Shown here piece by piece: positions 5,249 through 30,485 of a stretch of 64,000 nucleotides of DNA. The notes beneath the pieces were generated by a model that had not been told where the DNA came from, did no database searches, and saw only the letters and a program-made list of their open reading frames with translations. Source of the stretch: Verrucomicrobium sp. BvORR106 (GTDB lineage Bacteria; Verrucomicrobiota; Verrucomicrobiia; Verrucomicrobiales; Verrucomicrobiaceae); the NCBI RefSeq assembly GCF_000739655.1, contig NZ_BATR01000112.1, forward strand, positions 62,001 to 126,000. Direction: 5' to 3'. Positions within the stretch are counted from its first letter, which is position 1, and every line of letters begins with the position of its first letter. The position numbers and the translations under genes are program-made.

Positions 5249-5701
5249 TCAGTGCGGTGGATTCTTTGCCAGTGCCGTAGTGGTTTCCGCAGCGGGGGAC
5301 GGGGCCGTTGCTGTCACAGGGAAGCGGCGTCTCACGTAGACTGCGCTCCGCACCTCAGGCTCCTGTCCGGGTGGATCGATGAGCTTCCAGCCGCACATGC
5401 GCAGCAGGCTCAGTCGCCCCGGCGGCTTCTCCATGTAGATTTCCCATGACGCCCAATGTGGCACCCAGATCTCTTTGACCCACCAGTAGTCTTTGTACAC
5501 CCAGGTTTCCCCTCTCACATGCTGTCGTTTACTGGTGGGGGACCCCATTTCCTCCACGACTTCCAATGCCGTGGCACCAGGGCGCAAGTTGGCTGGATTT
5601 CCGCCCATTTTATAAGGCAGGATGCTCTGGCATGAGCAAATGAAGGCAGCAAGACCAAGGGCTGCTGTGACCTGAAGAGAGGGCTTGGACAGTCGGGTCA
5701 T
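5249..5701 (-). CDS. BamE/SmpA-like outer-membrane lipoprotein
   Basis: A 150-residue predicted lipoprotein. After the ATG at 5701 comes a hydrophobic leader ending AAFICSCQS, in which Cys24 is the likely lipidated residue. The following LRPGATALEVVEEMGSP and GETWVYKDYWW resemble SmpA/BamE-type proteins, where a GxTxxEVxxxxGxP segment precedes an aromatic strand. The frame is open to 5755 and would overlap the next gene, but that extension has no signal-peptide character. It starts 40 bases after the stop of a secretin gene, in the same direction. A natural inference is that it acts as a pilotin or assembly lipoprotein for the secretins; that is not proven by sequence. Confidence 0.75.
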   Translation of the reverse strand: MTRLSKPSLQVTAALGLAAFICSCQSILPYKMGGNPANLRPGATALEVVEEMGSPTSKRQHVRGETWVYKDYWWVKEIWVPHWASWEIYMEKPPGRLSLLRMCGWKLIDPPGQEPEVRSAVYVRRRFPVTATAPSPAAETTTALAKNPPH

Positions 5702-5741: not shown

Positions 5742-7661
5742 TCAGGGGGTGCCATCCTTTTTGAACAGCCGCTTGAGCCAGCTTGTACGCCGGGGCGGAG
5801 GGTTGACGCTGTCGCTTGAAGGGGGAGGGGCCGTCACGGTCGGCGTGGCCGCTGGATTGAGCGGCCGGCCAGCCTCCTCCAGCGTGGCGGGGTCGATGGG
5901 AATGCTCGTTTGCGGTCCCAAGGTGGCCTGGATTAGCTCGTCGGTTTGGGCTTGGGGATCGTCCGGATTGATGATCCGAGGGGTTATGAGGTAGAGCCGT
6001 TGGAAACGGCCGTTGGTGACCTTCTTGTTCTTGAACGGCAGGCCTACGACAGGAATCTTGCTCAGGATGGGAATGCCGGATTCTGACTTGACCTCCTGAT
6101 TGCGATACCTGCCTCCGATCAGAAGACTCTCACCATGCTGCACAACGGCCTGGGTGATGACGCGATTGTCATTGGTGGCCGCTGCCACATTGGTGTTGGC
6201 GAGTTCAGCATCGGTGAGAGTTCCGTCTCCCACTTCGATACCTAGATAGACTCTCCCGGGCCCTCCGTCGGGGTGGTTCATGATTCTGGGGAGAACCACC
6301 AGATCCAGGCCAGATGCCACCTTGTAGAGGTAGGACTGGCGTTCTCCCGCAACTGGCAGCACAGCGCTCGTTTGATCAGTGAGCCGGGCAGGCTGGTTGT
6401 CCATGGTCAGCACGGAAGGCCGGGAGAGCACCTGGGCTTTGCCTCGTTGTTCCAGCGCACGGATGTTGGAGAGCACCGCGTAGCTGGAGCCTACGATCAA
6501 AGTGGTCTGGTTCAGGCCCAATGCGCCGGTGGTGAGGGCGGCGGGGATCTCCGGCGGGTCCTTGTCAAAAGGGGAGCCGGTGATGGCGCCTGTGGTGGGA
6601 TTGGTGTCGAAGAATCGTCGGTCAGCGCCAAACCCGACGCGGAACGGCACTTCCCGGCTCTCGATCTTCTGGGTGCCTTTGACGAGGAAGCTGCTTTGCC
6701 AGTCCAAGCCATCGCTCACTTCCAAGTCCACGATGGCGGCGGTGATCTCCACCATGAAACGGGGGATATCCAGCATATCGATGATCTCGCGGTAGCGGGG
6801 CTCGCGGCTGGCATCATCTACAATGATGACTGCGTTGCGCGTGGGGTCGGCGATGATGAAGGGTTCATCGGTCGTGGGTTTGGCCAGATCCGCGATGAGC
6901 ATGGAGCGCAGGATCTGCACCACTCCGGCGCTCTCCCGCACATCCACGGCTCCCGTGGCGGCGGCGCTGCCCAAAACCGTGGCGCGAAGCTGGTTGCGTT
7001 CGGGTTCGGCCCGGGCGTACTTCAAGGGAAAGATCATGGCCGTCTTGCCCGCAGGGACTGGAGGTGTCGCAGCAGCAGCGGCCGTCGGAGCTTCAAGGCG
7101 GATCCCCAGCTTCACCGCCACGCTTTGCACATGGTTGACGTAGGCGTCCGGGCCGCTGACGGACAGTGTGGTGGTTGCAGTGTCGTACTTGATCTCCGGC
7201 CCTGCGACACTGGAAACGAGGGCGGACCTCAGCGCTGGCTCGTTGACGGCAGGAACCTTGTACTTTCGATCCAGGCTGGCGTCAGGCTTGAAAATGAGAA
7301 GGTTTCGCGTGCCTTTGAAGAAGCAGGCATCCAGGCCGTTTTTGGCCAGCAATTCTTGAAGATAGGGGGTCCGCATCCCTTGGGCAGGAGGCGTGAATTT
7401 CTTGAGGCTATCCACATTTTGGAACTCAAGAGTGATGCCTTCCCCGCGACTCAGTTGGGTGAGTGATGCTTTGAGTTTCGCTACTTCTGTCTGAGTGGAG
7501 GCATCCAGCTTTTCCTTGAAAACCTCAGTGGGCTGCCGCCAGAAGTTGTCATCTACCGTGATCGCGGACAGGTGCCCGACCGTCCAGAAGACCAGGACGC
7601 ACAGGCCCAGCACGGTCTGGCAGGGTCGCGAGGGAAAGGGGACGAAGAGCGGACGACTCAT
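5742..7661 (-). CDS. Secretin, type III secretion SctC-like (short paralogue)
   Basis: A 639-residue outer-membrane secretin that should form a multimeric pore. A hydrophobic leader (about residues 15-33) precedes N-domains. A secretin_N domain follows with IFPLKYARAEPERNQL and IIADPTRNAVIIVDD (about 209-300). The C-terminal secretin domain has VEITAAIVDLEVSDGLDW, AQVLSRPSVLTMDN, GESLLIGGRYR and IPILSKIPVVGLPFK, and finishes with LYLITPRII at 556-564. The NAVIIVDD strand and the (L/F)xLITPR ending are features I associate with SctC rather than GspD or PilQ. Its ATG overlaps the stop of the longer secretin gene as ATGA, which suggests translational coupling. The proline-rich, basic C-terminal tail (600-639) could bind the lipoprotein encoded next. 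Confidence 0.88.
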   Translation of the reverse strand: MSRPLFVPFPSRPCQTVLGLCVLVFWTVGHLSAITVDDNFWRQPTEVFKEKLDASTQTEVAKLKASLTQLSRGEGITLEFQNVDSLKKFTPPAQGMRTPYLQELLAKNGLDACFFKGTRNLLIFKPDASLDRKYKVPAVNEPALRSALVSSVAGPEIKYDTATTTLSVSGPDAYVNHVQSVAVKLGIRLEAPTAAAAATPPVPAGKTAMIFPLKYARAEPERNQLRATVLGSAAATGAVDVRESAGVVQILRSMLIADLAKPTTDEPFIIADPTRNAVIIVDDASREPRYREIIDMLDIPRFMVEITAAIVDLEVSDGLDWQSSFLVKGTQKIESREVPFRVGFGADRRFFDTNPTTGAITGSPFDKDPPEIPAALTTGALGLNQTTLIVGSSYAVLSNIRALEQRGKAQVLSRPSVLTMDNQPARLTDQTSAVLPVAGERQSYLYKVASGLDLVVLPRIMNHPDGGPGRVYLGIEVGDGTLTDAELANTNVAAATNDNRVITQAVVQHGESLLIGGRYRNQEVKSESGIPILSKIPVVGLPFKNKKVTNGRFQRLYLITPRIINPDDPQAQTDELIQATLGPQTSIPIDPATLEEAGRPLNPAATPTVTAPPPSSDSVNPPPRRTSWLKRLFKKDGTP

Positions 7662-10225
7662 TTGAAGCGCGGGGCAGCAGGTTGAGTGGGGAAGAGCGCG
7701 GGATCAGGTGCGGGGGGCGGCACCACTGGCGCGGGCAGTTCTGGCCCCAACGGGTGGACTTCCTCAGGACCAACGAGACGGGGGGTGATGAGAAACAACC
7801 GTTGCAGTTTCAAGTCTGAGTTCTGGCGGTCTTTGAACGCCAGGCCGACCAGGGGAATACGGCTCAGCAGGGGCACGGCGCCAGTTTGCTTGCGTTGTTC
7901 ATGGCGGTAGCGTCCCCCGAGCAAAAGGCTTTGGCCGCCGTACACGAGGGCCCGGGTGTAGATAGAGCTCTCGGTGAGCAAGGCGGAGTGCTTGGCGCTG
8001 GCGTTGACGGTGCCGTCATTCGCCGTGGCGGTCACGTTGTCGTCCTTGATCTCTATTTCCAGCAGCACCGCGCTCTCCTGATCGCGGTGCATGACCACTG
8101 GCTTGATGCGCAAGGCCAATGGAGCATTGATCCGGAAGAGATCGGCGTTGAACTCCCCGGGCACAGGCAGAAGCAGGGAATTGTTGTCATAGAAGAGGGC
8201 CTCAGTGTTTGCGACTGTCAGGAGGACTGGGCGGGAGACCACTTGGGCCCGGCCGTTGGACTCGAGAGCCTGCACTCTTGCGGCAAGTTTCCCGCTGGTG
8301 CCGGTGATGAGGGTGGACACGTTCAGCCCCACGGGATGGAAAACCTTGTCGGCCGTCAGCACCCCCGCCGGCGTAGTGAGCAATCGTAGGCCGTTGGCTG
8401 CCCCCTCGCCGCCAAATTTCAGGCCGCCGTCAAAGGAACTGGCCGCCGTACCCACGGCTTCGGTTATTTCCTCTTTTCCAAGCCCCGCCCAGTCGACCCC
8501 CCACTCCAGGGTGTCGTTGGCGTTGATATCCATGATGGAAACGCTGATCTCCACCAGCTGAGGGGCTACATCGAGCTGTTGGACGATTTTCTCATAGATG
8601 GGGATTCGTTCAGCAAGATCACAGACGATCAACCGGTTGGTGGCCCTCTCGGCAATCACCGTTCCGCGGAGGGTCGGGAGATTTGCTACGGCGGGAGGAG
8701 CGGTTCCTTTGGGCACGCTTGCGGACTCGTATCCGCGTTTCTCAGCGCCGGCGGTGTCAAACTTGGCGACCGTGGGTTCCTGCTGGATGAAGTCCCTCGG
8801 GTCCACCCGCACCACGCCCTCAGGCAGGAGCTTCTGCACAGGCGGCATCACCTGGATGCGGGAACTCTCAGGCAGATCCGTGTTCCCGGTGCCATGGTCA
8901 CTGCGACCGGTGGTGGGAAAGATCGAGGCGCTCTCTCTCCCGTCTGCGACACTGGCTTTCAGCATGTCCTCCAGCACGGCCGCGGATTCCTCCTGTCCGG
9001 CCATGGGAAATGGTTTGTAATAGTCGGTGCCCAGATTGTTTCCCAGCCGTTGTGCCGTCCCTGCCAGCACGAGTGCTTTTTCAAACGTGTCTGTGCCACC
9101 GCTCGAAACGCGTCTGGGGGCATTGGTGCCAAAAATTTTCCCTGTAATTTCCACGAACGCCGTGGCCACACCGGGGATCTTCACCTGAGTGGGCAGGTCG
9201 GTGGCAGACTTCGGGGATGCGTTTAGGAACTGGCCCTCCACGGAGGCATTGCGCAGCTGGAACACCTTCAGGACCATGCGCCCCAGCTTCAATTCGTTGC
9301 GAGGCACCGCTGGTTGGGCTGCGGGAGTAGGAATGGCAGCTGCTTCATTGGCAGTGAGGGGAGTGACGCCGCCCGTGGGATCGAGTTGCAAGCTTGGGTC
9401 TGTTGCCTTTGGACCCGATGTCCCCATGGAGGTGGTGATCGCCTTGCCATTGATGACCGACGTGGGTGAAGACTCGTTGCCTTTGGATTTCGGCGGCGGG
9501 TAGAAACCGAACATGCGCTCCGAGCGGGTCCGATCTGCCGCGAGCGACACCTCGTCCATCGCGAGCGGGTGGCCCTCGATGCGGCAGCGGGTGTCTGCAT
9601 ACCGCTCCATTTTGAGGTTGGTGCGGGAGGACAGCTCTTCGGCAAGATTTTGCCAGCCCGCATCATCCATGGGCAGGTAAAGTTCCTGCGTGGAACTCCA
9701 TGATGCCAGGTGAAGCTGCGTGTAGTAGGGGGGCTTGTCCGCAGGGACATCGGGTTTCTGGAAATAGTAACGCAGAGGAAACTCGGCAGCGAGGCGGGCG
9801 ATGGTCAGGGTGATGTTCTGAGTGGTGACGCTACGCTTCCACTCCCTGAAAGACGCCGCTTCCTGCTCCTGGGAGCTGGAGGAGGCGTTGCGGTTGGATT
9901 TCAGCCACCTAAGATGGTAGGCGGTGTCGCCCCACTTCAACAGATCGATCCGGCCAGGGCCTGAAGAGGGTTCAACGGATTGGACGTAGGTGCCTGCCAG
10001 TTTCTCCACGAACTCAGCTGGGCTGGTGGAGTCATCGAGAAGCTTCTTGAGTTGATCGTCCGCTGTCTTTTTGGGATTGCCCGGATTTTGAACCGGCGAC
10101 GGTATCGGGATGGGGGCGGGGGTGGGTGTTGGCGGACCGGGCTGGGCGTGACCTGCCGGAACCACCAGCATCAGGGCGGTGATGCCGAGCGAGATGGCAG
10201 CGTGGCGAGTGAGAGCAAGCATCAT
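7658..10225 (-). CDS. Secretin, type III secretion SctC-like (long paralogue)
   Basis: An 855-residue secretin with a signal peptide at about 1-27 (ending VVPAGHAQP) and a proline-rich spacer. A long N-terminal region has no clear match, and the C-terminal secretin domain covers about 555-815. Key segments are VEISVSIMDINANDTLEWG, AQVVSRPVLLTVAN, GGQSLLLGGRYRHEQ, VPLLSRIPLVGLAFKD and the closing LQRLFLITPRLVG. It is related to the following 639-residue secretin in the C-terminal third, but its N-terminal half is unique and much longer. The caspase/trypsin gene ends 25 bases upstream. Its stop overlaps the start of the next secretin by four bases. Two different secretins side by side could form a hetero-oligomeric or nested pore. 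Confidence 0.88.
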   Translation of the reverse strand: MMLALTRHAAISLGITALMLVVPAGHAQPGPPTPTPAPIPIPSPVQNPGNPKKTADDQLKKLLDDSTSPAEFVEKLAGTYVQSVEPSSGPGRIDLLKWGDTAYHLRWLKSNRNASSSSQEQEAASFREWKRSVTTQNITLTIARLAAEFPLRYYFQKPDVPADKPPYYTQLHLASWSSTQELYLPMDDAGWQNLAEELSSRTNLKMERYADTRCRIEGHPLAMDEVSLAADRTRSERMFGFYPPPKSKGNESSPTSVINGKAITTSMGTSGPKATDPSLQLDPTGGVTPLTANEAAAIPTPAAQPAVPRNELKLGRMVLKVFQLRNASVEGQFLNASPKSATDLPTQVKIPGVATAFVEITGKIFGTNAPRRVSSGGTDTFEKALVLAGTAQRLGNNLGTDYYKPFPMAGQEESAAVLEDMLKASVADGRESASIFPTTGRSDHGTGNTDLPESSRIQVMPPVQKLLPEGVVRVDPRDFIQQEPTVAKFDTAGAEKRGYESASVPKGTAPPAVANLPTLRGTVIAERATNRLIVCDLAERIPIYEKIVQQLDVAPQLVEISVSIMDINANDTLEWGVDWAGLGKEEITEAVGTAASSFDGGLKFGGEGAANGLRLLTTPAGVLTADKVFHPVGLNVSTLITGTSGKLAARVQALESNGRAQVVSRPVLLTVANTEALFYDNNSLLLPVPGEFNADLFRINAPLALRIKPVVMHRDQESAVLLEIEIKDDNVTATANDGTVNASAKHSALLTESSIYTRALVYGGQSLLLGGRYRHEQRKQTGAVPLLSRIPLVGLAFKDRQNSDLKLQRLFLITPRLVGPEEVHPLGPELPAPVVPPPAPDPALFPTQPAAPRFK

Positions 10226-10250: not shown

Positions 10251-12962
10251 TTAAGGAATAGGCGTTTCCCAGGCCTTGGCCCATTCGATGATCTGCCCAA
10301 GCACGTCGGGGGTGAGGCGCACGCCGTGGTTGAGCCCCGGGGTGCCTTGTGTGTGGATACCCACCGCGAAGGTATCGAGGCTGTTGGTCACGTGAAGGAT
10401 GGGCCCGCCGCTCTGCCCATCCTCACTGTCGATTCGGTGATTGAGCATCGCCGATCCCGCCGGGCCGATGAATCCGGCGGCTGCCCAGACTTGAAGGCTG
10501 AGGTCGATAGGATAGCCGGCGACAAAGCAGATGAGCCCATTGAGTTGCTGATCGGAAAGGACCGCCGTGCCCATCCAGGGAGCATCAAAATTCAGAAGGA
10601 TCAGGCCGTAGTCATGCTCAGGGCTCTGTCGGGATGCCCACTCAGGATGCACGACATACGTGGTGCTGGTACTGGCGGGAATGACGGTCCTTCCGTCTTG
10701 CAGGCCGGGAAACACATTGATGGAGACTGCCCGGTTACCTTCTTCTAGCAGGCAGTGACCTGCAGTCACCAACAGACGACGTCCCACGCAGAATCCCGAA
10801 CCGCGAAAGGTCTTGCCGTTTTCAAACGTGGCCTCCAAATACGACACGGCATTCCACGGTGAAAACTCCGTGTTTTTCGCCTGTCGTCGATCATTCCCCG
10901 GATCCATGACGTCGCGGGTGGCGGCAGGCGGCGCTACTGATGACGGTGTGGGCGTGCGTTTCGGTGGCCGCGTCAAATGGGCGGGTCGTGCCGCAGGGAG
11001 GTTCTGTGTGACTGGATAAATGCCAAGTGACTGAGCAAAATTTGATGATGCCTTTTCTTCCGGCTTCCACCCATGGCGGGCGGAGGGTTTGGAAGGCTTC
11101 TCGGGTGGTGTTTCCCGTCCAAGCAGCGGAATGGCGCGGCTGGTCTTCCGCCGGGGGCCCAGCAGCACGGGGGTCTGGGCGAATCCGAGGAGTTTCATCC
11201 GCTTCCGTGTCTCCAGGAGCAGTCGCTCGAAGGTCACCGCTTTACCGCCCGCACCCAACTCGCGGAGTGACTGGGCGGTGCAGTAGGTAAAGGCTCCATG
11301 GGCGACAGAGCCATGATCATACTCCGCGGCGAGTTCTGCCTCCTCACAGGCCTGGAGTAGAAGCGGGAGGTAGGGGCCCTTGTGCCCGAGCTCCTCTCTC
11401 AAAGTGTCGTAGCTTGCGTCATCCACCTGCCTCAGCACGTTGGCGCGGCCGATTTTCCTGAGAGTGCCTGACTTGCCAAAGTATCTCGCCTTTTCCGCTG
11501 CCTGCATGGTGCGAGTCTTTGGGCCGACGGCATGGGCAGCGCGCAGTACGGGAGTGAGGGGCCGCTCCTCCCAGATCTTGAGTCCGGCATTCCACTGCAT
11601 GCCACGGTGGCGGATGTCTCCGGGAGCCTCGATGCCGCGAACCCGCTGCGGACCCCGGTGGGCGCCACCGGCATGGCAGCAATCCAAGATGGCAATGAAA
11701 TCTGCCTCGTAAGGGAGCTGGGAGTAAAGCCGCCAGAGATCATCGTCCACGATCGCGGAATCCCTGCTGAAGGTGAAGTCATGCGCGACGAGGCATTCAT
11801 CCTGGCGGTCCACCACCTCACCGGTGCTGTAGGACTCCAGTTGGGCGCCATGACCGCTGAAGAACAGGACCCTGCTGTCGCCCGCAGCGGCTCCATCCAG
11901 GAGCCAGTCCAGTCGCTCGCGGATGGCTGAGGCGGTGGCTCTCTCATTATGCAGCATTCTGATCTGCTCGGGTGCCATGCCGCACTCCTGCAGCACGGAA
12001 CTCATAAGGTACGTGTCGTTGACGCAGCCCTTCAGTTCTGGGATGGAGGCATGCTGGTAACGGTCAATCCCAATCAGCAGGGCTCGATGAGTGGGCTGGA
12101 AGACGGAATTCTCTGCCTTGCTTGCTTGAAGGGAAGTCCGCGAGCGGCGTCGCGGACGCTGGTTGCGGTGCGGTATCGAGGGCAGGCGTCCGGCGTATCG
12201 GAGGACATCCGGCCAGAGCCATTCCCGGGCGGCGGGGTGGTCCAGGTATCCGTGCCGGTCAGAACCGGCGGCGATGACCTCGTGGTTCAAGGAGCCATCA
12301 GCACTGACAAACGGCGTCAATACCTCCACGAACGCCTCATCTCGGAGGCCTGGGGTGGAGGCGAAGGTGCGATCATGGGGATTGTGCAGGTGGTACCAGC
12401 GCGAAGACCCGACCGGCAGCATTCGACCCCCATAGACATTTCGCACGATGGGATGGCCCAGCGGAGATCCTGGGGTCACAAGAAGGCACTTTTGGGCCAG
12501 GTGAGGGTTACTGAGAAGGCAGTCGTAGGCGGCCAGGGATCCCACTCCTGGGGCGATCACAAGCAGAGGGAGCGGGCCAGCGGAAGTTTGGGCAGCCAGT
12601 GCGGCAGCCAACTCGTCGCTCATTTGCCGCCGGAGTTGTGCATTGCTGGTCCATACCGAGATAAGCGCGGCACAGTCTGCTATCTGTTCAGCGGCGGCAG
12701 ATACCACCTGATTGCCACGCAGCAGATCGCCCATACCGCGGATGACCTGTCCTTGGGCGAGCTGGGCGATGGCCTGCCTTCGGTCGTTTGCGTCAAGCGC
12801 CGCGACGGCCGTCCGCCATGCCGTCAGCGGGAAGTCGGTGCCTGTGGCCTGAGTGCCAGGATGCCATTGCTCCAGTTCATCTTGCAGCACCTGGTGCCAT
12901 TGTTGCCAAGAAGCCAGTTGGCGCGGATTGCGCCCTTCGCCGTGAATCCAGAGGACATTCAT
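10251..12962 (-). CDS. Multidomain protease: caspase-like domain fused to trypsin-like domain
   Basis: A 903-residue protein without a signal peptide. Residues 1-260 look like an alpha/beta-hydrolase fold, but the expected nucleophile elbow reads APGVGS (137-142), so the catalytic serine seems lost. Residues 290-600 are a caspase-like (peptidase C14) domain: ALLIGIDRYQ, the His371 of FFSGHGAQ, and the Cys429 of AILDCCHAGG. A proline-rich linker (about 615-690) leads to a trypsin-like domain. Its triad is His736 in VTAGHC, Asp784 in HDYGLI and Ser851 in DGQSGGP. Two proteases in one chain suggest self-processing or a proteolytic cascade. The gene lies 25 bases upstream of two secretins. Caspase and trypsin domains are both known in bacterial conflict and cell-death proteins; a defence or death role here is inference. 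Confidence 0.88.
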   Translation of the reverse strand: MNVLWIHGEGRNPRQLASWQQWHQVLQDELEQWHPGTQATGTDFPLTAWRTAVAALDANDRRQAIAQLAQGQVIRGMGDLLRGNQVVSAAAEQIADCAALISVWTSNAQLRRQMSDELAAALAAQTSAGPLPLLVIAPGVGSLAAYDCLLSNPHLAQKCLLVTPGSPLGHPIVRNVYGGRMLPVGSSRWYHLHNPHDRTFASTPGLRDEAFVEVLTPFVSADGSLNHEVIAAGSDRHGYLDHPAAREWLWPDVLRYAGRLPSIPHRNQRPRRRSRTSLQASKAENSVFQPTHRALLIGIDRYQHASIPELKGCVNDTYLMSSVLQECGMAPEQIRMLHNERATASAIRERLDWLLDGAAAGDSRVLFFSGHGAQLESYSTGEVVDRQDECLVAHDFTFSRDSAIVDDDLWRLYSQLPYEADFIAILDCCHAGGAHRGPQRVRGIEAPGDIRHRGMQWNAGLKIWEERPLTPVLRAAHAVGPKTRTMQAAEKARYFGKSGTLRKIGRANVLRQVDDASYDTLREELGHKGPYLPLLLQACEEAELAAEYDHGSVAHGAFTYCTAQSLRELGAGGKAVTFERLLLETRKRMKLLGFAQTPVLLGPRRKTSRAIPLLGRETPPEKPSKPSARHGWKPEEKASSNFAQSLGIYPVTQNLPAARPAHLTRPPKRTPTPSSVAPPAATRDVMDPGNDRRQAKNTEFSPWNAVSYLEATFENGKTFRGSGFCVGRRLLVTAGHCLLEEGNRAVSINVFPGLQDGRTVIPASTSTTYVVHPEWASRQSPEHDYGLILLNFDAPWMGTAVLSDQQLNGLICFVAGYPIDLSLQVWAAAGFIGPAGSAMLNHRIDSEDGQSGGPILHVTNSLDTFAVGIHTQGTPGLNHGVRLTPDVLGQIIEWAKAWETPIP

Positions 12963-13140: not shown

Positions 13141-13171
13141 ATGCCGTGCCCTCTTTAAAAGGGCACGGCAT
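13141..13171 (-). terminator. Hairpin downstream of the esterase gene
   Basis: A perfect 11-base stem, ATGCCGTGCCC and GGGCACGGCAT, encloses a 9-base loop. It lies 42 bases after the stop of the minus-strand esterase gene. The bases that follow on that strand are AT-rich but not a T run, so it is a probable, not a classic, intrinsic terminator. Confidence 0.55.
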
Positions 13172-19159: not shown

Positions 19160-21163
19160 TCAGTGAGTGGTCACTGGTGGCAGACCCTGCTCAGCTGGCG
19201 GTACGATGGCGGTCCAGTCAGGCAGGCTGCACAAAGAGCTGTCGATGTACAAGTGATGCCACAGCTGTGTGGACACCACTGCGGCGAGGCCCATTTCCAC
19301 CGAAAGTCGCGGCATGGATCCTTCCCGCAGATTCTGATAGGATTTGCGCCATTGGCTCACGGCCGCAGCGTCGAAATAACCGCTGCGGTTCAGAGACTCC
19401 TCACTCAGCAGTTCGTTGATGAACTCCGGAGAGGGGTCGAGATGGAAGCTGTCGAGCGGAGCGCGGAAGATGACCTTGCCCCGTTTGTAGACAGAAGGCG
19501 GTACCCACCGCTCGGCCAGCAGACGGAGGATGTGCTTGTCCCGGAAGCCGTTGAGCTTCCACTTCGGATGAAGCTTGGAGGTGAAGTCGAACACCTCCTC
19601 ATCCAGAAACGGATACCGGACTTCGACAGAGGAGTGCATGGCGACACGGTCGCCCTTTGCCTGAAGCAGATGCCCTGCGAGCGTGACCCGGCCGGCCATC
19701 CAGACCCCGCGATTGGCGGGGGCCCACCGCTTGGCCCTGGTCAGGTCCATCTGGAGGGATTCCCAAGGCTCAATCGTGTCCAGCATGGGGCGCATGGCCT
19801 CGCTGTAGAAGCGGAACTTGGTGATGCTAAGCAGTCCGTATGAATCCACCCAGGCATTGGGGCCACCGATCACGTCCTCGATCTGCCGGCGGATGGCGCG
19901 GGAGTACTGGGGGACCTTGTTCATCCGCAAGTAACCGCGACGCATCCAATCACTGAGGCGGACGTTGGGCAGCACGTCCAGGTACCCCAGCACCTTGGAA
20001 AGTTTGTACCAGGGATAACCCATGAGCCACTCATCCGCGCCTTCTCCCGTCAGCACCACTTTCTGACCGCTGGCGTTGACCTTTTGAGCGAGTTGGAGCA
20101 GGGCTGCACAGGAGGTGTCAATGACGGGAGCTTCTGCCGCCTGAATAAGTCGGGGATAAGTGTTGAGGATATCCTCTGTTCGGAAGTTCTGAACTATGGG
20201 AGGAGGCGCGCCAATGTGACGGGCCACCATGCTGGCAGCATCGAGTTCGTCCAGCTCGGGATGGTCGACGCGGACCGTGTAGGTGTGCACGTTCTTGCCA
20301 TGCAGATGACAGGCCAGAGCCAGGATCATGCTGGAATCCACCCCGCCGGAGAGATAGGAGCCGACGGGCACATCCGCCCGCAGTCGCATGCCGACCGCGT
20401 GGAGTAAAGTTTTCTCGAAGCGATCTACAAGGTCTTTCTCGTTGCCATCCTCCTCCTGTCCCTGGTCGGGGAAATCCATCTTCCAGTAGGAGCGCTCGTC
20501 CAGGGTGGGGCCCGTGTTGGGACCTCCTGGTTGGATGCGCAGGTAGTGTGCCGGGGGCAGCATGCGCACCCCTTCGAAACAGGTGGTTGGTCCCGGGAGC
20601 GCTGCGAAGGTGAAAACTTGATCGATGCCCTTGCGATCAGGCCGGGCAGGTACCAGGCCGGAGGCCAGCAGGGCTTTGATTTCAGATGCGAAAAGCAGCC
20701 AGTCGCCCTGGCGGGTCCAGAAGAGGGGAGCAATGCCAAAGCGATCGCGCCCCAGAATCAGTTGCTTCTTCGAATCATCCCAAAGGGCAACAGAAAACTG
20801 CCCCCGTAGTTTTTCGAAGAAACCCTCTTGAAAATCTTCCCACATATGGGGAAGGATTTCGGTGTCGCAATGGGTGCGCAGCACATGGCCGCGCTCCGTC
20901 AGTTCCCTGCGTTTTTCAATGTGGTCAAACAGTTCACCATTGAACACAACATGAACGTTGCCCGACTCGTTCTTCATGGGCTGCTGGCCATCCGCCAGGC
21001 CCACGATGCTGAGCCTCCGGGAGGCCAGTCCGACGCCCGGGCGGATGAAGAATCCCTCTTCGTCCGGACCGCGATGCACGATCGCCCGGGCCATCCTGCG
21101 GAGAACCTCTTCTGGCACGGTCCGCTCACCGCTCAGATCCAGCATGCCTGCAATGCCACACAT
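19160..21163 (-). CDS. asnB: Asparagine synthase (glutamine-hydrolysing)
   Basis: A 667-residue class II amidotransferase. Cys2 of MCGIAGMLDL is the glutaminase nucleophile, and RRLSIVGLADGQQPM and VVFNGELFDH complete that domain (about 1-220). The synthetase domain shows the ATP loop SYLSGGVDSSMILA and VVLTGEGADEWLMGY. It is about 110 residues longer than E. coli AsnB and closer in size to the AsnO-like and surface-polysaccharide amidotransferases. That leaves room for a role beyond asparagine, such as amidating a secondary metabolite. It is divergent from the polyketide synthase gene across 240 bases of AT-rich DNA, so co-regulation is possible but not shown. Confidence 0.9.
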   Translation of the reverse strand: MCGIAGMLDLSGERTVPEEVLRRMARAIVHRGPDEEGFFIRPGVGLASRRLSIVGLADGQQPMKNESGNVHVVFNGELFDHIEKRRELTERGHVLRTHCDTEILPHMWEDFQEGFFEKLRGQFSVALWDDSKKQLILGRDRFGIAPLFWTRQGDWLLFASEIKALLASGLVPARPDRKGIDQVFTFAALPGPTTCFEGVRMLPPAHYLRIQPGGPNTGPTLDERSYWKMDFPDQGQEEDGNEKDLVDRFEKTLLHAVGMRLRADVPVGSYLSGGVDSSMILALACHLHGKNVHTYTVRVDHPELDELDAASMVARHIGAPPPIVQNFRTEDILNTYPRLIQAAEAPVIDTSCAALLQLAQKVNASGQKVVLTGEGADEWLMGYPWYKLSKVLGYLDVLPNVRLSDWMRRGYLRMNKVPQYSRAIRRQIEDVIGGPNAWVDSYGLLSITKFRFYSEAMRPMLDTIEPWESLQMDLTRAKRWAPANRGVWMAGRVTLAGHLLQAKGDRVAMHSSVEVRYPFLDEEVFDFTSKLHPKWKLNGFRDKHILRLLAERWVPPSVYKRGKVIFRAPLDSFHLDPSPEFINELLSEESLNRSGYFDAAAVSQWRKSYQNLREGSMPRLSVEMGLAAVVSTQLWHHLYIDSSLCSLPDWTAIVPPAEQGLPPVTTH

Positions 21164-21403
21164 AATCTTCGTATCGCTTTTGGATGACCTTTAGGACAGT
21201 CTTTTCTGTGAAAAACTGTTGCATTAAAAAAAGACAAAATGTTGGCAGGAAAAGCGCGACAAACCCCCTCACCGCGAATAGAAGGGGTTCAGTTTCTGCA
21301 TGGTTGCGGAATTTCGTTGAAAATCGTTCATGCTTCCCGAAGTGTAGATGTTCTCGTACAGCAGTAATTCAGTGATTCACGTATATTTGAAGACAATTCT
21401 TGT
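21164..21403. promoter_or_regulatory. Divergent promoter region between asnB and the PKS gene
   Basis: This 240-base interval separates two divergently transcribed genes and must hold both promoters. It is clearly richer in A and T than the coding DNA on both sides, notably at 21200-21240 and 21340-21400. I see no unambiguous -35/-10 pair and no strong ribosome site before the PKS ATG at 21404. Confidence 0.45.
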
Positions 21404-24400
21404 ATGAACAAAGAAGGAATTGCCATCGTTGGTGTCGGATGCCGCTTCCCCGGAAAGGTCGCGGACATGGAGTCCTACTGGAAGCTGCTTGCCGAAGGCC
21501 GTGAGGCCGTTGGTGAAGTTCCTGCAGACCGGTGGAATTTGGAACGTTACTACGATGCGGAGGCCGGGATTCTCGGCAAGTCGATCGCCAGCCGGGGTGG
21601 GTTCGTGGAATCACTCGAGCAGTTCGATCCCCAGTTCTTTGGTATTTCCCCACGTGAGGCTCCGTTTGTGGACCCGCAGCACCGCCTGCTGCTGGAGACT
21701 GCCTGGGAGGCGATTGAAGACGCCGGTCTGGTGCTGGACTTTGAGAAGGGCACCGATCTTGCCGTGTACGTGGGCATCTCCCACAACGACTACCAGATCA
21801 TCCAGGCCTCCCCGTATGATTCCTCGGGCATCAGCCCTCATACGGCCACGGGCAGTGCGCACAGCATTGCGGCCAACCGTATCTCTTACTGTCTCAATCT
21901 TACTGGCCCCAGTGTGGCCATGGACACCGCGTGCTCCTCTGCACTCACGGCCGTGCATGCGGCATGTGAGCACATCTGGAGCGGACGTGGTGAAGTCGCC
22001 CTCGCGGGCGGCGTGACCATCATGATCAACCCTGGTGGGTTCATCGGGTTCTCTCAAGCGTCGATGTTGTCACCTGATGGTCGTTGCAAAGCGTTCGATG
22101 CTTCTGCGAACGGCTTTGTGCGTGGTGAAGGCGCTGGCATGGTCTTGCTGAAGCCGCTTTCGAAAGCGATTGCCGATGGCGACCCCATCCATGGCGTCGT
22201 GGTGGGCACCTCTATCAACCAGGATGGTCACACCAATGGTATCTCCCTGCCCAGCCCTGAGGCTCAGGCCCGGTTGGTGCGTGATGCCTGCCGTGATGCC
22301 GGTGTTGATCCTTCGAAGATCGGTTTTGTCGAAGCACATGGTACGGGCACGGCAGTGGGCGATCCGATCGAGGCCACCGCGCTGGCGGAAGCTCTCTGTG
22401 CCGGCCGTGCATCGGATGATCCGCTGCCAATTGGTTCGGTGAAGACCAATCTTGGGCACCTGGAGACCGCCGCAGGGGTGGCCGGGCTTCTGAAGGCGCT
22501 GCTGGTGCTGAAGCACCACCAGATCCCGCCGAGCCTGCATTTTGAAACTCCCAGCCCGCACATTGATTTCCCGGGCCTGAAGCTTCGCGTTCCGACCTCA
22601 CTGGAGCCGTTCCCGGCGATCGATGGTGAGCGCCTGGTCGGGGTGAACTCCTTCGGGTTCGGTGGTGCCAACGCTCACGTGATCGTGTCTGAGGCTCCCG
22701 CACGTCCGCAGCCGGACGGTCCGGTGCTGGCAGATGGCCGCGCCTGGCCGCTTGTGCTTTCCGCCCGTTCGGAAGAAGCGTTGCGTGGCAACGCGGGTCG
22801 CATCGCCGACTGGCTGGAAGCCCGCTCCAACGCGAATGGCAGTACACCTTTGTTGCCGGACCTGACTTACACCCTCGGGGCCCGTCGCAACCATCACCAG
22901 TATCGCATGACGCTGGTGTCCCAAACGATGCCTGAGGCGATCGAAGAACTGCGGGCCTATGCCGCAGGCACTCCGGGGCCGAAAGTGCAGGAGGCCTTCA
23001 CTCCGCGTCCGGAGCAGGCTCCCAAGGTGGGTTTTGTGATGAGTGGTCAAGGACCCCAGTGGTGGGGCATGGGCCGTGAACTGATGAAGCATGAGCCGGT
23101 GTTCCGCGCCACGATGGAGCGCTGCGCCGAGGCCATGAAGCCTTGGGCCCGGTTCTCCCTGCTTGAGGAGCTGGCCCGCACCGAAGATACGTCCCAAGTG
23201 GCCCGTACCGAGGTGGGGCAGCCGGCGATCTTCGCCATGCAGGTGTCTCTTGCTGCCCTCTGGCAGTCCTGGGGTGTGAAGCCCGCCGCCGTTGTCGGGC
23301 ACAGTGTGGGTGAAGTGGCAGCTGCCTGCGTGGCTGGCATCTTCAGCATCGAAGAAGGCGCTCGCATCATCGTGCAGCGCGCCCGCTTCATGGAAGACTG
23401 CGCCCGTGGTGAAGGCACTATGCTGGCCGTGGGGCTTGCCGAAGAGGAAGCCCGCGCCGTCATCGCACGTCATGATCGCACCGTGAGCATCGCGGCCTTC
23501 AACGGCCCGCGCTCCCTCACCATGGCGGGGTCGCGTGTCTCCCTGGAGGCCATCCAGTCTGAACTTGATAGCCAGGGCGTGTTTGCCCGGCTTGTGAAAG
23601 TGGACCATCCCTTCCACCACGCGCTCATGCAACCTGCCGCAGATGCCCTGGTGGCTGCGCTGGCGGAGATGAAGCCTCTGGCGGACACGATCCCGTTCTT
23701 CAGTACGGTGACAGGTGAGCGCTGCGCCGGTGAATCCTGTGATGCGGCCCACTGGGGTCGTGGCATCCGCCAGCCGGTGCTTTTTGCCCCGGCAGTGAAC
23801 GCCCTCGCCGACTACGGTGTGGACGTCTGGCTGGAGATCAGTGCGCATCCCGCGCTGGCCCACTCGATCCAGGAGTGCCTCACCGCACGCGGAGTCAAGG
23901 CTCCGGTTCTTTCCTCGATCCGCCGTGAACGCGAGCATGAGACCATGCTTGAGACGGTGACCAATCTGCACCGCAATGCGGTGGAGGCGGACTTCACTGC
24001 CATCACCCCGTCCCGCCGTCAGTTGCCGCTGCCTGCTTATGCATGGGATCGCAGCCGTTGGTGGAGTGAGTCTCCGGACTGGAAAGAAGGTCGTCTTGGC
24101 AAGGGTGGCCGTGGTCTGCTGGACACGCGTCTGCCACGGGCGACCCCGACCTGGTCAGCCCGCCTGGATTCCCGCCACATGTCCTTCTTGAAGGACCACA
24201 AGGTGGAAAGTCACGTCATCTTCCCCGCAGCGGGTTTTGTGGAGCTGGTCCTGGAAGCAGGGGTGCAGCTCTTTGAAGGCCGCCCCTTTGCTGTTGAGGA
24301 CTTTGAGATCCGCAAGCCGCTCATCCTGCCGGAAAACCCGTCCAGCATCCAGCTGGAGGTGACCTACGAGAGCAACGAGCGCACGTTCACGATCCAGAGC

Positions 24401-27400
24401 AAGTTTGAGAACGCAGCTTCGTGGTCGGTCCACGTGGTGGGCACGATGCGCAGCGAGCGTACGGAGTCGACCTTTGCCGGCACCGACTGGGAGTCCGCCT
24501 CCAAGGAAGTGCAGGGACTGGAGAAAGTGGATCTGACCCACTTCTATGATCACATGGCCGACAAGGGCCTGCGTTACGGTGAAGAGTTCCGCGGTGTGCG
24601 TGAACTCGCTGCCGCCGGTGGCCGCTCTTCCGGGCGGGTCGCCTTGACGGATGCTTCCGCGGTCCGCGCAGGGGAGTATCAGCTGCATCCGGTGCTGATG
24701 GACGGTGCTCTGCACGTGTTCTCTGCAGGTGCTCGCACGGTGGAAGGTCGCAAGGCCCGGCTCAAGCTGCCGGTGCGCTTTGCCCGCATCCTCTTCCTTC
24801 GTTCGCCAGGGGCCTCCTGCAAGGTGGAAGCTGGAGTTCAAGGATTTAACGATGAGTATCTCCAGGGCCGCCTCGGCATCTACGATGAAGAGGGCAACCC
24901 GTGCGTGCTGGTGGATGGCTTCCGTGCCATCGCCGTGGCCGGGGTGCGTCGTTCCGGCGGCGGGGGAGGCATCCGGGATCTCATCTATAATGTGGGCTGG
25001 GAGCGCAAGCCGCTGGCTGGTGTTCCGGCCACTCTTGAGCCGCTGCCGCTGTCCCGCCTTCAAGAGGCGGCCGGTGTGGCCCTTGATGAGGTGGTGAATG
25101 CCCGTGGGCGTGCCAAGCTGGAAGCCGCACTGGCGGCAGGCGATACGCTCGCCGCGGCTCACCTCGCGCAGGGACTGCGCAAGATGGGTGCGGGTGATCT
25201 GATCACGGCAGAGGCGCTGGGCGTGGCTCCGGCACTGCAGCCGGTTTTTGGTCAGCTCATGACCGGCCTCGTGCTGCGTGGACTCGTGGATGCGAAGGAC
25301 GGTGGCTATGTGCCCACCGCAGAGTTTGACAGTGCGGCCGCCACGGCGGACGACACGCTGCGCGAGTACGTGGAGCAACATCCCGGCCATCTGCCGGAGG
25401 CGCTGCTCTGCGTCGCGAACTGCGCCGAACTGACCCCGATTCTTCGTGGTGAGAAGGAGGCCGTGCAGGTGCTCTTTGGCGGAAGTGGTGCGGATCTTCT
25501 GGACCAGTTCTACGGTGACGGTCTCTACACGAGTCACTGGCTGGCTGCGATCGCAGCCACGGTGCAGGAGGCGGCCAAGGCGCTGCCGGAAGGGCGTGGT
25601 TTGCGCATCCTTGAAATCGGTGCAGGCACAGGCGGTCTCGCCTCGTACCTGCTGCCGAAACTTGAGCGCGGTCTGCATAGCTACACGTTCACCGATATCT
25701 CCGCCTCGTTCTTTTCCGGTGCCATGCAGAAGCTGGCCGGATTCCCCGAAGTGGAGTACCGCGCGTACGACTTGGAGCGTGGCCCTGCGGAGCAGGACTA
25801 CAAGCTCGGCTCCTATGACTTTGTAATTGGCACGAACTGCGTGCACGCCGTGAGCGACGTGCGGGTGGCCCTCGGTCATCTGCGTGATCTCCTCGCACCC
25901 GGCGGCAGCCTGGTGTTCATGGACACCGCCTCGCCCCAGCTCTGGACGGAGACCGTCTTCGGTCTCACGAGCGGCTGGTGGAGCCTGACGGATCGCGAAC
26001 TTCGTCCTGTGCAGCCGCTCATGGAGCGGGAGCAGTGGGAGAAGGTGCTGAAAGAAGTTGGGTTCGAAGAAACTGCCTCCCTCCCGGGCCTGATTGGTCC
26101 GCGTGGTGGGGAAGGGCAGATCGGCGTGCTGGCCCGCAAGGCCTGGACGACGGAAGCCGCCCCGGCCGAGATCGAGGAAGCAACGGCAGAAGAGGCGGCC
26201 GAAGGTGTTGACCTGGAAACCTCCTGGCTGGTCTTTGCTGATGCTGGCGGAGTGGGCGACCAGCTCGTGTCCCGCCTGCGTGAGGCTGGTGCCCGTTGCC
26301 GCGTGGTGACACGCGGGGGTGCCTATGCTTCTGACGGCCAGGATCTGTTTACAGTACGGGCAGAGGCTCCGGAAGACTGGACTCAGCTTGTGACTGAGGT
26401 GGTGGCTGAGGCTGCTCCTGAGCGCTTGGTGTATCTCTGGACGCTTGATGAGCCGGCTACACCGACGAATGAAGACGACGTGCTGGGTGGGACGGATGCC
26501 CTGTTGCATCTGGCCCAGGCCCAGGATTCCATCTGCCCGGCGGCCAAAGTTCGCCTGGACCTGATCACCCGTGGCGCCCAGTCAGTGGGTCAGGAAGTTC
26601 CGGTTACGACGGTGGCTCAGTCTCCGGCCATCGGGATTGCCCGTGTGATTCACAATGAGCAGCCCAGCATCTCGTGCCGCTGCGTGGATCTGCCGCCGGT
26701 CGCCTCGGAAGGGGATGTGGATCTGCTGTTGGGTGAACTCGGGAACCGCGACGCAGAGCGCGAAGTGGCCTTCCGTGGGGAAGCCCGCTACGCCATGCGT
26801 CTGACGCGTGGACGTTCCGTGCAGGAACAGTGGCTCGATGCCTCGGTGCCGCTTCGTCTGGAGTCGAAGGATCGTGGTCACCTGGATGCTCTGGCGTTCG
26901 CGCCGTTTGAGCAGCCAGCGTGCGGTCCGGATGATGTGGTGATCGATGTCATGGCCGCAGGGATGAACTTCCGCGACGTGCTCAAGGCCCTGGCGTTGTA
27001 TCCTGGTGAAGCCCCGGATGCCCGAATCTTCGGGGACGAAGTGGCTGGGATCATCACTGCCGTGGGTGCGAATGTGGATCACGTGCAGGTGGGCGACCGC
27101 GCCTTTGGTCTGGCCGTGTTCGGCATGGCCACCCAGACGCTGGCCCGTGGCTGTGACGTGCGCGTCATGCCGCCCGCGTTGAGCTTCGAGGAAGCAGCAA
27201 CACTGCCGGTGGTCTTCATGACCTCGTGGCATTCCCTGGTGAATGTTGCCCGCATGCGTGCGGGGGAAACCATCCTCATTCACGCCGGTGCCGGCGGGGT
27301 GGGTATGGCCGCCATCCAGATCGCCCGTCACCTGGGTGTGGATGTCATCGCCAGTGCGGGTAGTGCCACCAAGCGCGCCCTCCTGCTGAACATGGGGGTG

Positions 27401-29131: not shown

Positions 29132-29135
29132 GGAC

Positions 29136-30485
29136 ATGTCTGACGACAAGCGCGCCCGGCTCAAACAGCTCCTCGCCAACGGGGAAATCAAGCTTCATCC
29201 ACTCTCCCTCTCCCAGAGGGAGTTGTGGGAAACAACGCCGGTGCCGGTTTCGGACCCTGCCAACCACATCTGCAGTCTGATTTTCATGCGGGGCAAGATC
29301 CCGCCTGAAATGACGCGGCAGGTGGTACAGCGGGTGGTGGACCGGCAGGAAGCGCTACGGCTGTCCTTTCTCCCGGGAAAGGACCAGCCGTTTCAGATGG
29401 TGCGTGCGACAGGGGAGGCGAACATCAAGTTTCGTGATCTGCCCGAAGCCCAGCAGCGTCCTGATGCGCTGGAGGAGGCGGTGCAGGAGATCTTCGGTGA
29501 GCCGTTTGATCTCATGCACGGGCCTCTCTATCGGATCGAGATGTTGTCCCGCTCGGCGGATGACATCGTGCTCGTTTTTGCCGCTCACCACACCATCGCT
29601 GATGGCTGGAGTCTGGGGGTGTTTGTACAAGACCTTTGGGCCTCATGTCTGGGCTTGATGAAGGGGGCGAAAGGCCCCCTGCCTCCGGTGCCGATGACCT
29701 ACTCTGCCTGGAGTGCCGCGGAGCGCGCCCAGTGGCCAGTCACTGAGCTGGAGCAGCGAGCCACCTATTGGAAGCCGTTGCTGAAGGATGCTCCGCGTTT
29801 GTGGACCCCGCCGGTGAGGCGTCCTGGTGAACCTCATGCGTTGCGTCGATGGGTGACGGAGATTCCGGCCCCGTTGACTCAGGCCATTCAGGACCTTGCC
29901 AAGAAACATCACGCCACTCTCTACAGCACCATGTTGTCGGCGTTTCAGACCACGCTTTGTCAATGGACGGGTGGGGAGGATATCGTCGTGGGTTCGCCGG
30001 TGGCGAACCGCACTCATCCTTCCATGAAGGAGACGATGGGCTATGTGTCCGGCGTGGTGCCAGTGCGTGGGCAGGTGGTGCGAGACCGCCCTTTTTCGGA
30101 GACCTTGAAGGTGGTGCATGAGTCCACCATGGATGCGTTTGCCAATGCCATGCCCTTTGCAGAGCTGGCGAAGGCGGTGGGGGATGTGCCATCGCCCGGC
30201 CACAATCCGCTCTTTGATGTTCGTTTTGCCTTGCAGAATCACCCCGTGCCAGAAGTGGGGTTGCCAGGCATCTCCATGAAGCTGCGCATGCGCTCCACTG
30301 GCACGGCCAGGTTCGATCTGGCCTGTGAAGTGACGCAGGATGGAAATGTGCTGGAATTGGTCTGGTTGTCCCGGGATTCCCTGTTCACCCAGCCCGAGAT
30401 TGAAAAGCTCAATGACCTGTATCAACTTGTGCTGACGCGGGCCTGCCAGGCACCCGGCCAGACCAGTGCCGCGCTCATGTCTTGA
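29136..30485 (+). CDS. Stand-alone NRPS condensation-domain protein (acyltransferase)
   Basis: A 449-residue free-standing condensation domain with no adenylation or carrier domain. The catalytic motif is HHTIADG with His151, His152 and Asp156, followed by WSLGVFVQDLW. LSLSQRELWETTPVP is the typical C1 motif. DIVVGSPVANRTHP and ETMGYVSGVVPVR are later C motifs, and HNPLFDVRFALQN resembles C6/C7. It probably transfers the acyl chain from the preceding ACP to an amine or alcohol. The N-terminal 20 residues (DDKRARLKQLLANGEIKL) are charged and helical and could be a docking element. The ATG at 29136 has GAGGA five bases upstream and follows the PKS stop by four bases, so coupling is likely. Confidence 0.92.
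   Translation: MSDDKRARLKQLLANGEIKLHPLSLSQRELWETTPVPVSDPANHICSLIFMRGKIPPEMTRQVVQRVVDRQEALRLSFLPGKDQPFQMVRATGEANIKFRDLPEAQQRPDALEEAVQEIFGEPFDLMHGPLYRIEMLSRSADDIVLVFAAHHTIADGWSLGVFVQDLWASCLGLMKGAKGPLPPVPMTYSAWSAAERAQWPVTELEQRATYWKPLLKDAPRLWTPPVRRPGEPHALRRWVTEIPAPLTQAIQDLAKKHHATLYSTMLSAFQTTLCQWTGGEDIVVGSPVANRTHPSMKETMGYVSGVVPVRGQVVRDRPFSETLKVVHESTMDAFANAMPFAELAKAVGDVPSPGHNPLFDVRFALQNHPVPEVGLPGISMKLRMRSTGTARFDLACEVTQDGNVLELVWLSRDSLFTQPEIEKLNDLYQLVLTRACQAPGQTSAALMS

Follow-up and report, generated by a model that had tools for sequence, protein, structure and literature searches.

Protease-caspase fusions are a known kind of protein; the published systems compared here and below are represented by excerpts of the cited papers. 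In Alphaproteobacteria, an N-terminal trypsin with an intact triad shares one polypeptide with the caspase p20 domain of a pseudo-orthocaspase, which has a Gln-Cys dyad and is followed by DUF4384 (Klemencic et al. 2019, PMC6426788). Cyanobacterial orthocaspases with an Abhydrolase domain join a p20 to a hydrolase in one chain, and a Ser-acid-His triad is described for the latter (PMC7475262). The vWA-MoxR conflict systems couple a caspase to an alpha/beta-hydrolase as separate genes with an ATPase core, and their VMAP-associated caspases always adjoin such a hydrolase gene (Kaur et al. 2020, PMC7159879). Finally, with the pro-nucleases of the anti-phage systems Canu, Hachiman and AVAST, a caspase- or trypsin-like protease switches on a partner nuclease by cutting a gating segment (PMC12799240). 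Here we analyse a gene of Verrucomicrobium sp. BvORR106, found in a stretch of 64,000 nucleotides (contig NZ_BATR01000112.1, positions 62,001 to 126,000; hereafter the window, to which coordinates without a locus name refer). Its product combines two intact proteases of different classes, a metacaspase-type domain and, closest to the V8 family, a glutamyl endopeptidase-type domain, behind an alpha/beta-hydrolase-like domain that has lost its nucleophile.

The window protein differs from the described fusions in domain order, in its intact p10-containing caspase, in the type of its serine protease and in the lost hydrolase nucleophile. In contrast to the alphaproteobacterial proteins, the caspase with an intact His-Cys dyad and p10 comes before the serine protease; an N-terminal trypsin and a Gln-Cys dyad are absent from it, and a Pfam scan of the protein gave no DUF4384. 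Compared by description rather than by sequence with the cyanobacterial orthocaspases, it has lost the Ser of the hydrolase triad, and a glutamyl endopeptidase follows. Unlike in the vWA-MoxR systems, caspase and hydrolase are fused, and the hydrolase is nucleophile-less. We found no report of an intact caspase and an intact serine protease in one chain in the open-access literature, seen in part, which does not cover subscription papers.

The 903-residue frame is intact, with no internal stops. Pfam matched Peptidase_C14 at residues 292-600 (E value 1e-23; 84.7 bits, cut-off 21.4) and Trypsin_2 at 721-860 (E 9.8e-9; 36.5 bits, cut-off 27.6); with scores above the cut-offs, neither protease domain is a chance match. 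A first-pass annotation, made from the letters of the window alone, had described an intact caspase dyad (His371, Cys429) and an intact trypsin-like triad (His736, Asp784, Ser851), and had proposed to look for the same fusion in other genomes. All five residues are present at these positions, and an equal-length relative from Verrucomicrobium sp. BvORR034 (70% identity) keeps both protease domains and all five residues. Two proteases in one polypeptide thus stand, while their family names change, as described below, to metacaspase type and glutamyl endopeptidase type. The full-length relative also rules out a sequencing or frame artefact.

The fusion did not prove to be common. A second full-length copy was found in 1 of 56 other genomes, the same single one among 387 genomes of the phylum, and a scan of genome contigs gave 14 stretches matching the pattern, one of which was confirmed, again the BvORR034 copy. 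A match covering 80% of the fusion was present in none of 196 plasmid records and in none of the six phage records with a match, and both protease domains occurred together in none of 55 viral loci (the stretch fetched, with up to 5 kb on each side). These scans, which see close relatives best and cover finite samples of genomes, give two fused sequences in total. Between the two, the ratio of non-synonymous to synonymous divergence (dN/dS) was 0.009 for p20, 0.05 for p10, 0.10 for the glutamyl endopeptidase and 0.16 for the hydrolase part, at saturated dS.

By sequence comparison and modelling, the caspase part is of the metacaspase type. Metacaspases were the top solved structures for a profile of seven related sequences (6w8s, E 1.4e-46), and p20 and p10 lie in a single fold with a His-Cys dyad, as is characteristic of metacaspases within the C14 family. 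AlphaFold2 modelled the core with block means of the predicted local distance difference test (pLDDT) of 66-97 over residues 291-430 and 80-96 over 531-610 (76 in the block of H371 and 86 in that of C429). The model of residues 291-618 aligned with Arabidopsis metacaspase 4 (6w8r) at Z 26.6 and a root-mean-square deviation of 5.3 over 264 residues; for Arabidopsis metacaspase 9, Z was about 25.5. The fold (Z 25-27), the dyad and p20 plus p10 spaced by about 90 residues are common to these type II enzymes, AtMCA4 and AtMCA9, and the window protein, but the latter is bacterial and fused at both ends.

Four residues of this part, C313, D316, S369 and D427, correspond by spacing to the pocket residues Cys92, Asp95, Ser156 and Asp211 of TbMCA2 (PMC4357240), which points to an acidic S1 pocket. 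All four are unchanged throughout an alignment of 28 rows, made up of the two fusions and 26 of 54 viral caspase loci. Only the invariance of C313 and D316 is unbiased, however, because the GHG and DCCH motifs were part of the patterns used to retrieve the viral loci. The metacaspase part is expected to cleave after Arg or Lys. Several other caspase-domain genes were seen. The caspase nearest to that of the window, outside the fusions, belongs to a 1092-residue protein with a PF04185 phosphoesterase (L049:3065-6340, genome G135); others are joined to Amidase_2 (L058:2855-5635) or to MAM, PPC and CARDB domains (L053:5849-10204). The genome of BvORR106 itself holds two further, neighbouring caspase-domain genes (L060:2621-6093, contig C135).

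The second protease appears closest to V8-type glutamyl endopeptidases, a resemblance from which cleavage after Glu would be predicted. These enzymes ranked first with a profile of five sequences (1p3c, E 1.8e-25; V8 protease 1wcz and 1qy6, E 2e-19 and 3e-19), and alignment to them places the triad and H870 in the family register, H870 being invariant in all five rows aligned. The triad assignment rests on this alignment: structure prediction, suggested as a check in the first-pass annotation, produced a model of the caspase core but gave pLDDT below 50 almost throughout the glutamyl endopeptidase part, for which two sequences were available. The reading as a canonical trypsin is weakened, since the best solved relatives are glutamyl endopeptidases and residue 850, just before S851, is Gln and not the Asp194 of the mammalian switch (PMC5508998). 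The triad, His213, a pro-segment and the register of mature residue 1 are all common to the V8-type enzymes (1p3c, 1wcz, 1qy6; PMC5508998) and the window protein; however, the former are secreted with a leader, whereas the window enzyme is leaderless and stands behind a metacaspase. Hydropathy was -0.53, against 2.2-2.7 in four leader-bearing relatives, and the fusion chain, having no leader, is expected to remain cytosolic.

Residue 1 of V8-type enzymes contributes its amino group to the substrate pocket, which therefore exists only after removal of the pro-segment (PMC5508998). The segment between the two proteases of the fusion had been taken for a proline-rich linker. However, a genome of the same family but another genus (G014) encodes a stand-alone glutamyl endopeptidase in a 306-residue gene (L061, 8813-9733), the start Met of which aligns with residue 606 of the fusion protein. 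Most of the linker is therefore the glutamyl endopeptidase's own pro-segment, with the joint of the fusion directly after the caspase. The pro-segments of the two fusions are 52% identical, and A681-T682-R683-D684-V685 is unchanged between them, as are some other short stretches. Residues 6 and 7 of the solved chains (1p3c, 1wcz, 1qy6), which we take to begin at mature residue 1, pair with N690 and D691, so that V685 corresponds to chain residue 1 and is the expected mature N-terminus. A metacaspase cut after R683 and a self-cut by the glutamyl endopeptidase after D684 are both possible. The earlier idea that one domain cuts the linker and activates the other is partly supported by the intact sites, the pro-segment and R-D-V at the required cut position, but these do not favour either domain as the one that cuts.

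The first-pass annotation overlooked a third, N-terminal domain. Pfam gave no match above noise for residues 1-284, and a plasmid search with the domain gave weak matches (best E 5e-3). The relatives in the plasmid records fetched, 6 of 15, stand alone and carry a nucleophile motif of the hydrolase type; alpha/beta-hydrolase models of Pfam match four of the five scanned, with E values of 2e-4 to 0.0085 that do not reach the curated cut-offs. Against six of these relatives, hhalign matched residues 101-250 with a probability of 98.9% (E 3.4e-17), and their profile finds the domain in its own genome (E 3.5e-10). Folded alone, the domain gave a poor model (mean pLDDT 46.7), the best structural matches of which, LCAT (Z 7.5) and lipases, were mixed with unrelated folds, and the assignment as a hydrolase therefore rests on the hhalign and profile matches. 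By these, the fusion has the alpha/beta-hydrolase partner of the caspase-hydrolase systems, though with the nucleophile lost and with relatives below the Pfam cut-offs. All 10 stand-alone relatives examined, for which 4 of 7 genomes matched by the profile were fetched as well, have the nucleophile Ser; in both fusions it is Gly (G139), with D197 and H237 retained. Because the nucleophile is lost, the domain probably binds a ligand or partner and does not cut.

A caspase gene directly adjoins 6 of the 10 stand-alone hydrolase relatives (Pfam, E 0.01 or better; that at L181 is below the cut-off). The neighbours at L166, L168 and L170 were judged by annotation or the list of open reading frames only, and the caspase-like neighbour at L179 has no Pfam match. 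The last, a gene with a GHG motif, lies with its stand-alone hydrolase relative (L179:5782-8627) about 33 kb from the glutamyl endopeptidase-secretin unit on the same contig of G014. Matches of PADLOC models for LmuA (E 0.009) and RT-protease (E 0.03-0.05), and of TIR_2 (E 0.08), were taken as noise.

The fusion gene is followed, after a gap of 25 bases, by a secretin gene (secretin 1), which overlaps a second one (secretin 2) by 4 bases, and then by a small lipoprotein-like gene with a match to BamE below the cut-off (E 0.017). Both secretins stay below the cut-off of the SctC model TIGR02516 (Table 1). Since a terminator-like stem of 14 pairs lies upstream, the fusion gene is probably the first of the unit; three such sites were found against 2.2 expected, and the stem at the fusion gene has many more pairs than the other two. 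The gene order is identical at locus L025, yet the surrounding genes are collinear there too, which makes this synteny alone weak evidence. The argument is carried by G014, which keeps the row despite different flanks, with identities of 39% for the glutamyl endopeptidase (over 616-901), 52% for secretin 1, 59% for secretin 2 and 59% for the lipoprotein-like protein. Glutamyl endopeptidase copies above 500 bits occur in 3 of 68 genomes of the family, and these copies were themselves the source of the profile; the same three genomes are the ones that hold secretin 1 (at E 1e-60) among 239 genomes of the order. Further matches to the glutamyl endopeptidase, at 57-91 bits, come from two more genomes and from a second copy in G014.

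Table 1. Features of the fusion gene and of its gene row, in window coordinates
Feature	Position	Strand	Basis or remark
Fusion gene, 903 amino acids (nucleophile-less alpha/beta-hydrolase-like domain, metacaspase-type domain, predicted pro-glutamyl endopeptidase)	10251..12962	minus	open reading frame, Pfam, 70% identical full-length relative
Residues 1-255, alpha/beta-hydrolase-like domain	12198..12962	minus	match covers 101-250; 1-100 assigned by position and His-Gly at 7-8 alone
G139, position of the nucleophile Ser in stand-alone relatives	12546..12548	minus	comparison with 10 relatives
Residues 288-605, metacaspase-type p20 and p10, insert of about 90 residues (446-533)	11148..12101	minus	Pfam, profile, AlphaFold2 model, structure alignment
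Catalytic H371	11850..11852	minus	
Catalytic C429	11676..11678	minus	
Residues 606-684, pro-segment of the glutamyl endopeptidase (the earlier linker)	10911..11147	minus	aligned with the N-terminus of the stand-alone G014 enzyme
R683-D684-V685, candidate activation site	10908..10916	minus	register from alignment; unchanged in both fusions
Residues 685-903, glutamyl-endopeptidase-type serine protease	10254..10910	minus	nearest solved relatives 1p3c, 1wcz, 1qy6
Catalytic H736	10755..10757	minus	alignment to solved glutamyl endopeptidases
Catalytic D784	10611..10613	minus	alignment to solved glutamyl endopeptidases
Catalytic S851	10410..10412	minus	alignment to solved glutamyl endopeptidases
H870, aligned with the His common to glutamyl endopeptidases (His213, chymotrypsin numbering)	10353..10355	minus	alignment; role from PMC5508998 (excerpt)
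Secretin 1	7658..10225	minus	PF00263, E 7.4e-27; SctC model 213.8 bits, cut-off 238.45
Secretin 2	5742..7661	minus	PF00263, E 1.8e-29; SctC model 215.1 bits, cut-off 238.45
Small protein with lipoprotein-type leader (by eye)	5249..5701	minus	likely start is the ATG common with the G014 relative; listed open reading frame begins at 5755
Terminator-like stem, 14 pairs	13141..13171	minus	between the upstream esterase gene and the fusion gene

Other secretin genes were noted in the course of this analysis. The genome of BvORR106 has a separate type III secretion locus (L098, contig C190), with SctV and SctC above and an SctD-like protein below the cut-off. At two other loci (L096:7017-10103 and L097:6147-9639) a single secretin gene stands with a small lipoprotein-like gene, no protease being beside them. 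In G014, about ten similar small membrane-type proteins, mostly starting with MSRR or MPRR, are encoded upstream of the glutamyl endopeptidase (L061:10258-17755). Positions 19160-30485 of the window hold, as judged by eye, an asparagine-synthase-like gene, a gene for a 2575-residue polyketide-synthase-like protein and further genes.

We propose, at a probability of roughly 0.4, that the fusion protein is a three-module cytosolic protease zymogen, in which a built-in switch from metacaspase to glutamyl endopeptidase serves or guards the secretins. Such a cascade, predicted from sequence, is plausible, and we infer its specificities, its cut, the order of cutting, the signal and the link to the secretins as follows. 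Residues 1-255, having lost the nucleophile, would probably bind something; residues 288-605 would be an active metacaspase with the expected Arg/Lys specificity; and residues 606-903 would be a V8-type glutamyl endopeptidase with its pro-segment. Little activity is expected of the latter before a cut immediately ahead of V685, since in this class the substrate pocket is completed by the amino group that the cut frees on residue 1. A signal reaching the hydrolase-metacaspase part would lead the metacaspase to cut the pro-segment, R683 being the best candidate, and/or the glutamyl endopeptidase would cut itself at D684-V685, after which a Glu-specific protease would be free in the cytosol. The secretin pair and the lipoprotein in the same unit suggest that the switch may serve or guard the outer-membrane channel pair. 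The switch would resemble that of the Canu, Hachiman and AVAST pro-nucleases in the cutting of a gating segment, but the enzyme proposed to be switched on is another protease of the same polypeptide and not a nuclease (PMC12799240).

Several observations weigh against this proposal. A cut after R683 would leave one residue more than an N-terminus at V685, and this one residue may also block activity, since V8-type forms with 3-15 extra N-terminal residues are inactive on proteins (PMC5508998). A self-cut after D684 may in turn be slow, because V8-type enzymes cut far less well with Asp than with Glu at the P1 position (kcat about 150-fold lower; PMC5508998). As neither cut reads cleanly, a two-step trim is possible. 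The conservation of R-D-V is weak evidence, since there are two fused sequences only and other stretches of the pro-segment are kept too. Nor does the gene row require the fusion, G014 having the glutamyl endopeptidase and the secretins without a fused metacaspase. In addition, one genome with a relative of the glutamyl endopeptidase (G038, 80 bits) has no match to secretin 1 at E 1e-30, and in another with a lower-scoring relative (G010) the sole secretin 1 match at that threshold is on another contig. The complete sequence of events, in which a hydrolase sensor triggers a metacaspase cut at R-D-V that creates the N-terminus of the glutamyl endopeptidase, which once released acts on or defends the secretins, is something we regard as improbable when all its steps are taken together.

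The glutamyl endopeptidase could instead activate itself at D684-V685, the metacaspase having other targets and the fusion merely co-delivering two enzymes; we hold this to be rather unlikely, though not negligible. Pro-forms of V8-type enzymes are able to process themselves, and self-activation is described for one natural enzyme (PMC5508998). For 18 relatives, 13 leaderless and 5 leader-bearing, we compared the residue that precedes the expected mature N-terminus (9 of the 14 plasmid records with a glutamyl endopeptidase relative were fetched). Read by hand, it was acidic in 9 of 13 leaderless proteins and in none of the five leader-bearing ones (Fisher p 0.03), or in 8 of 13 against 0 of 5 if gaps were disallowed, where L161 drops out (p 0.04). 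An earlier hand count of 9/11 (p 0.005) became 9/13 once the non-fitting L187 and L013 were added. However, the pattern depends on the hand-read register: the automatic alignment column was acidic in just 3 of 17 rows and did not reproduce it, and an automatic anchor gave 7/13 against 1/5 (p 0.31), with several rows visibly mis-anchored. Furthermore, the reading is post hoc, the two fusions are close relatives, L163 has His and L013 Arg, L066 and L187 are without a clear motif, and the fusions themselves carry Asp, a poor site, and not Glu. The acidic-residue pattern therefore remains a lead.

The gene row would also fit a regulated quality-control protease that degrades mis-targeted secretin or lipoprotein protomers before export, with the caspase as an added trigger. 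The tightness of the unit, the occurrence of glutamyl endopeptidase and secretin 1 in the same three genomes, and the retention of the row in G014 amid different flanks are all consistent with such housekeeping. However, secretins work in the outer membrane, whereas the protein appears to be cytosolic; moreover, the number of genomes, three, is small, and a single transferred block could be common to them. We consider this reading quite unlikely. We give slightly less credence still to an anti-phage or conflict effector that pairs a caspase with an alpha/beta-hydrolase and stands beside the secretins by chance. A PADLOC caspase model does match the fusion's own caspase domain (E 1.2e-18), the caspase neighbours of the stand-alone hydrolases point the same way, and published conflict systems pair caspases with alpha/beta-hydrolases (PMC7159879). 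Against this, the hydrolase nucleophile is lost in the fusion, and the EACC1-associated caspase model (NCBIfam NF047832) scored 49.6 bits against a cut-off of 140. The defence-gene neighbours looked for after the first-pass annotation did not turn up either, PADLOC matching none of ten neighbour genes, with no search aimed specifically at STAND, MoxR and vWA genes.

The protease switches described in the literature compared here, as far as the excerpts go, act on a separate target protein or on a domain of another kind. One polypeptide that combines two intact proteases from different classes with an intervening pro-segment and a site that might suit both would be a compact test object for the wiring of a cascade and for the origin of a fusion. 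The presumed parts of this fusion occur apart, the glutamyl endopeptidase alone in the same gene row of G014 and the other parts in genomes with caspase-hydrolase gene pairs. The tie of a caspase-like protein to a two-secretin unit was unexpected. If the built-in switch proposed here is true, these bacteria would have a caspase-to-serine-protease cascade that needs no separate genes and is tied to an outer-membrane channel.

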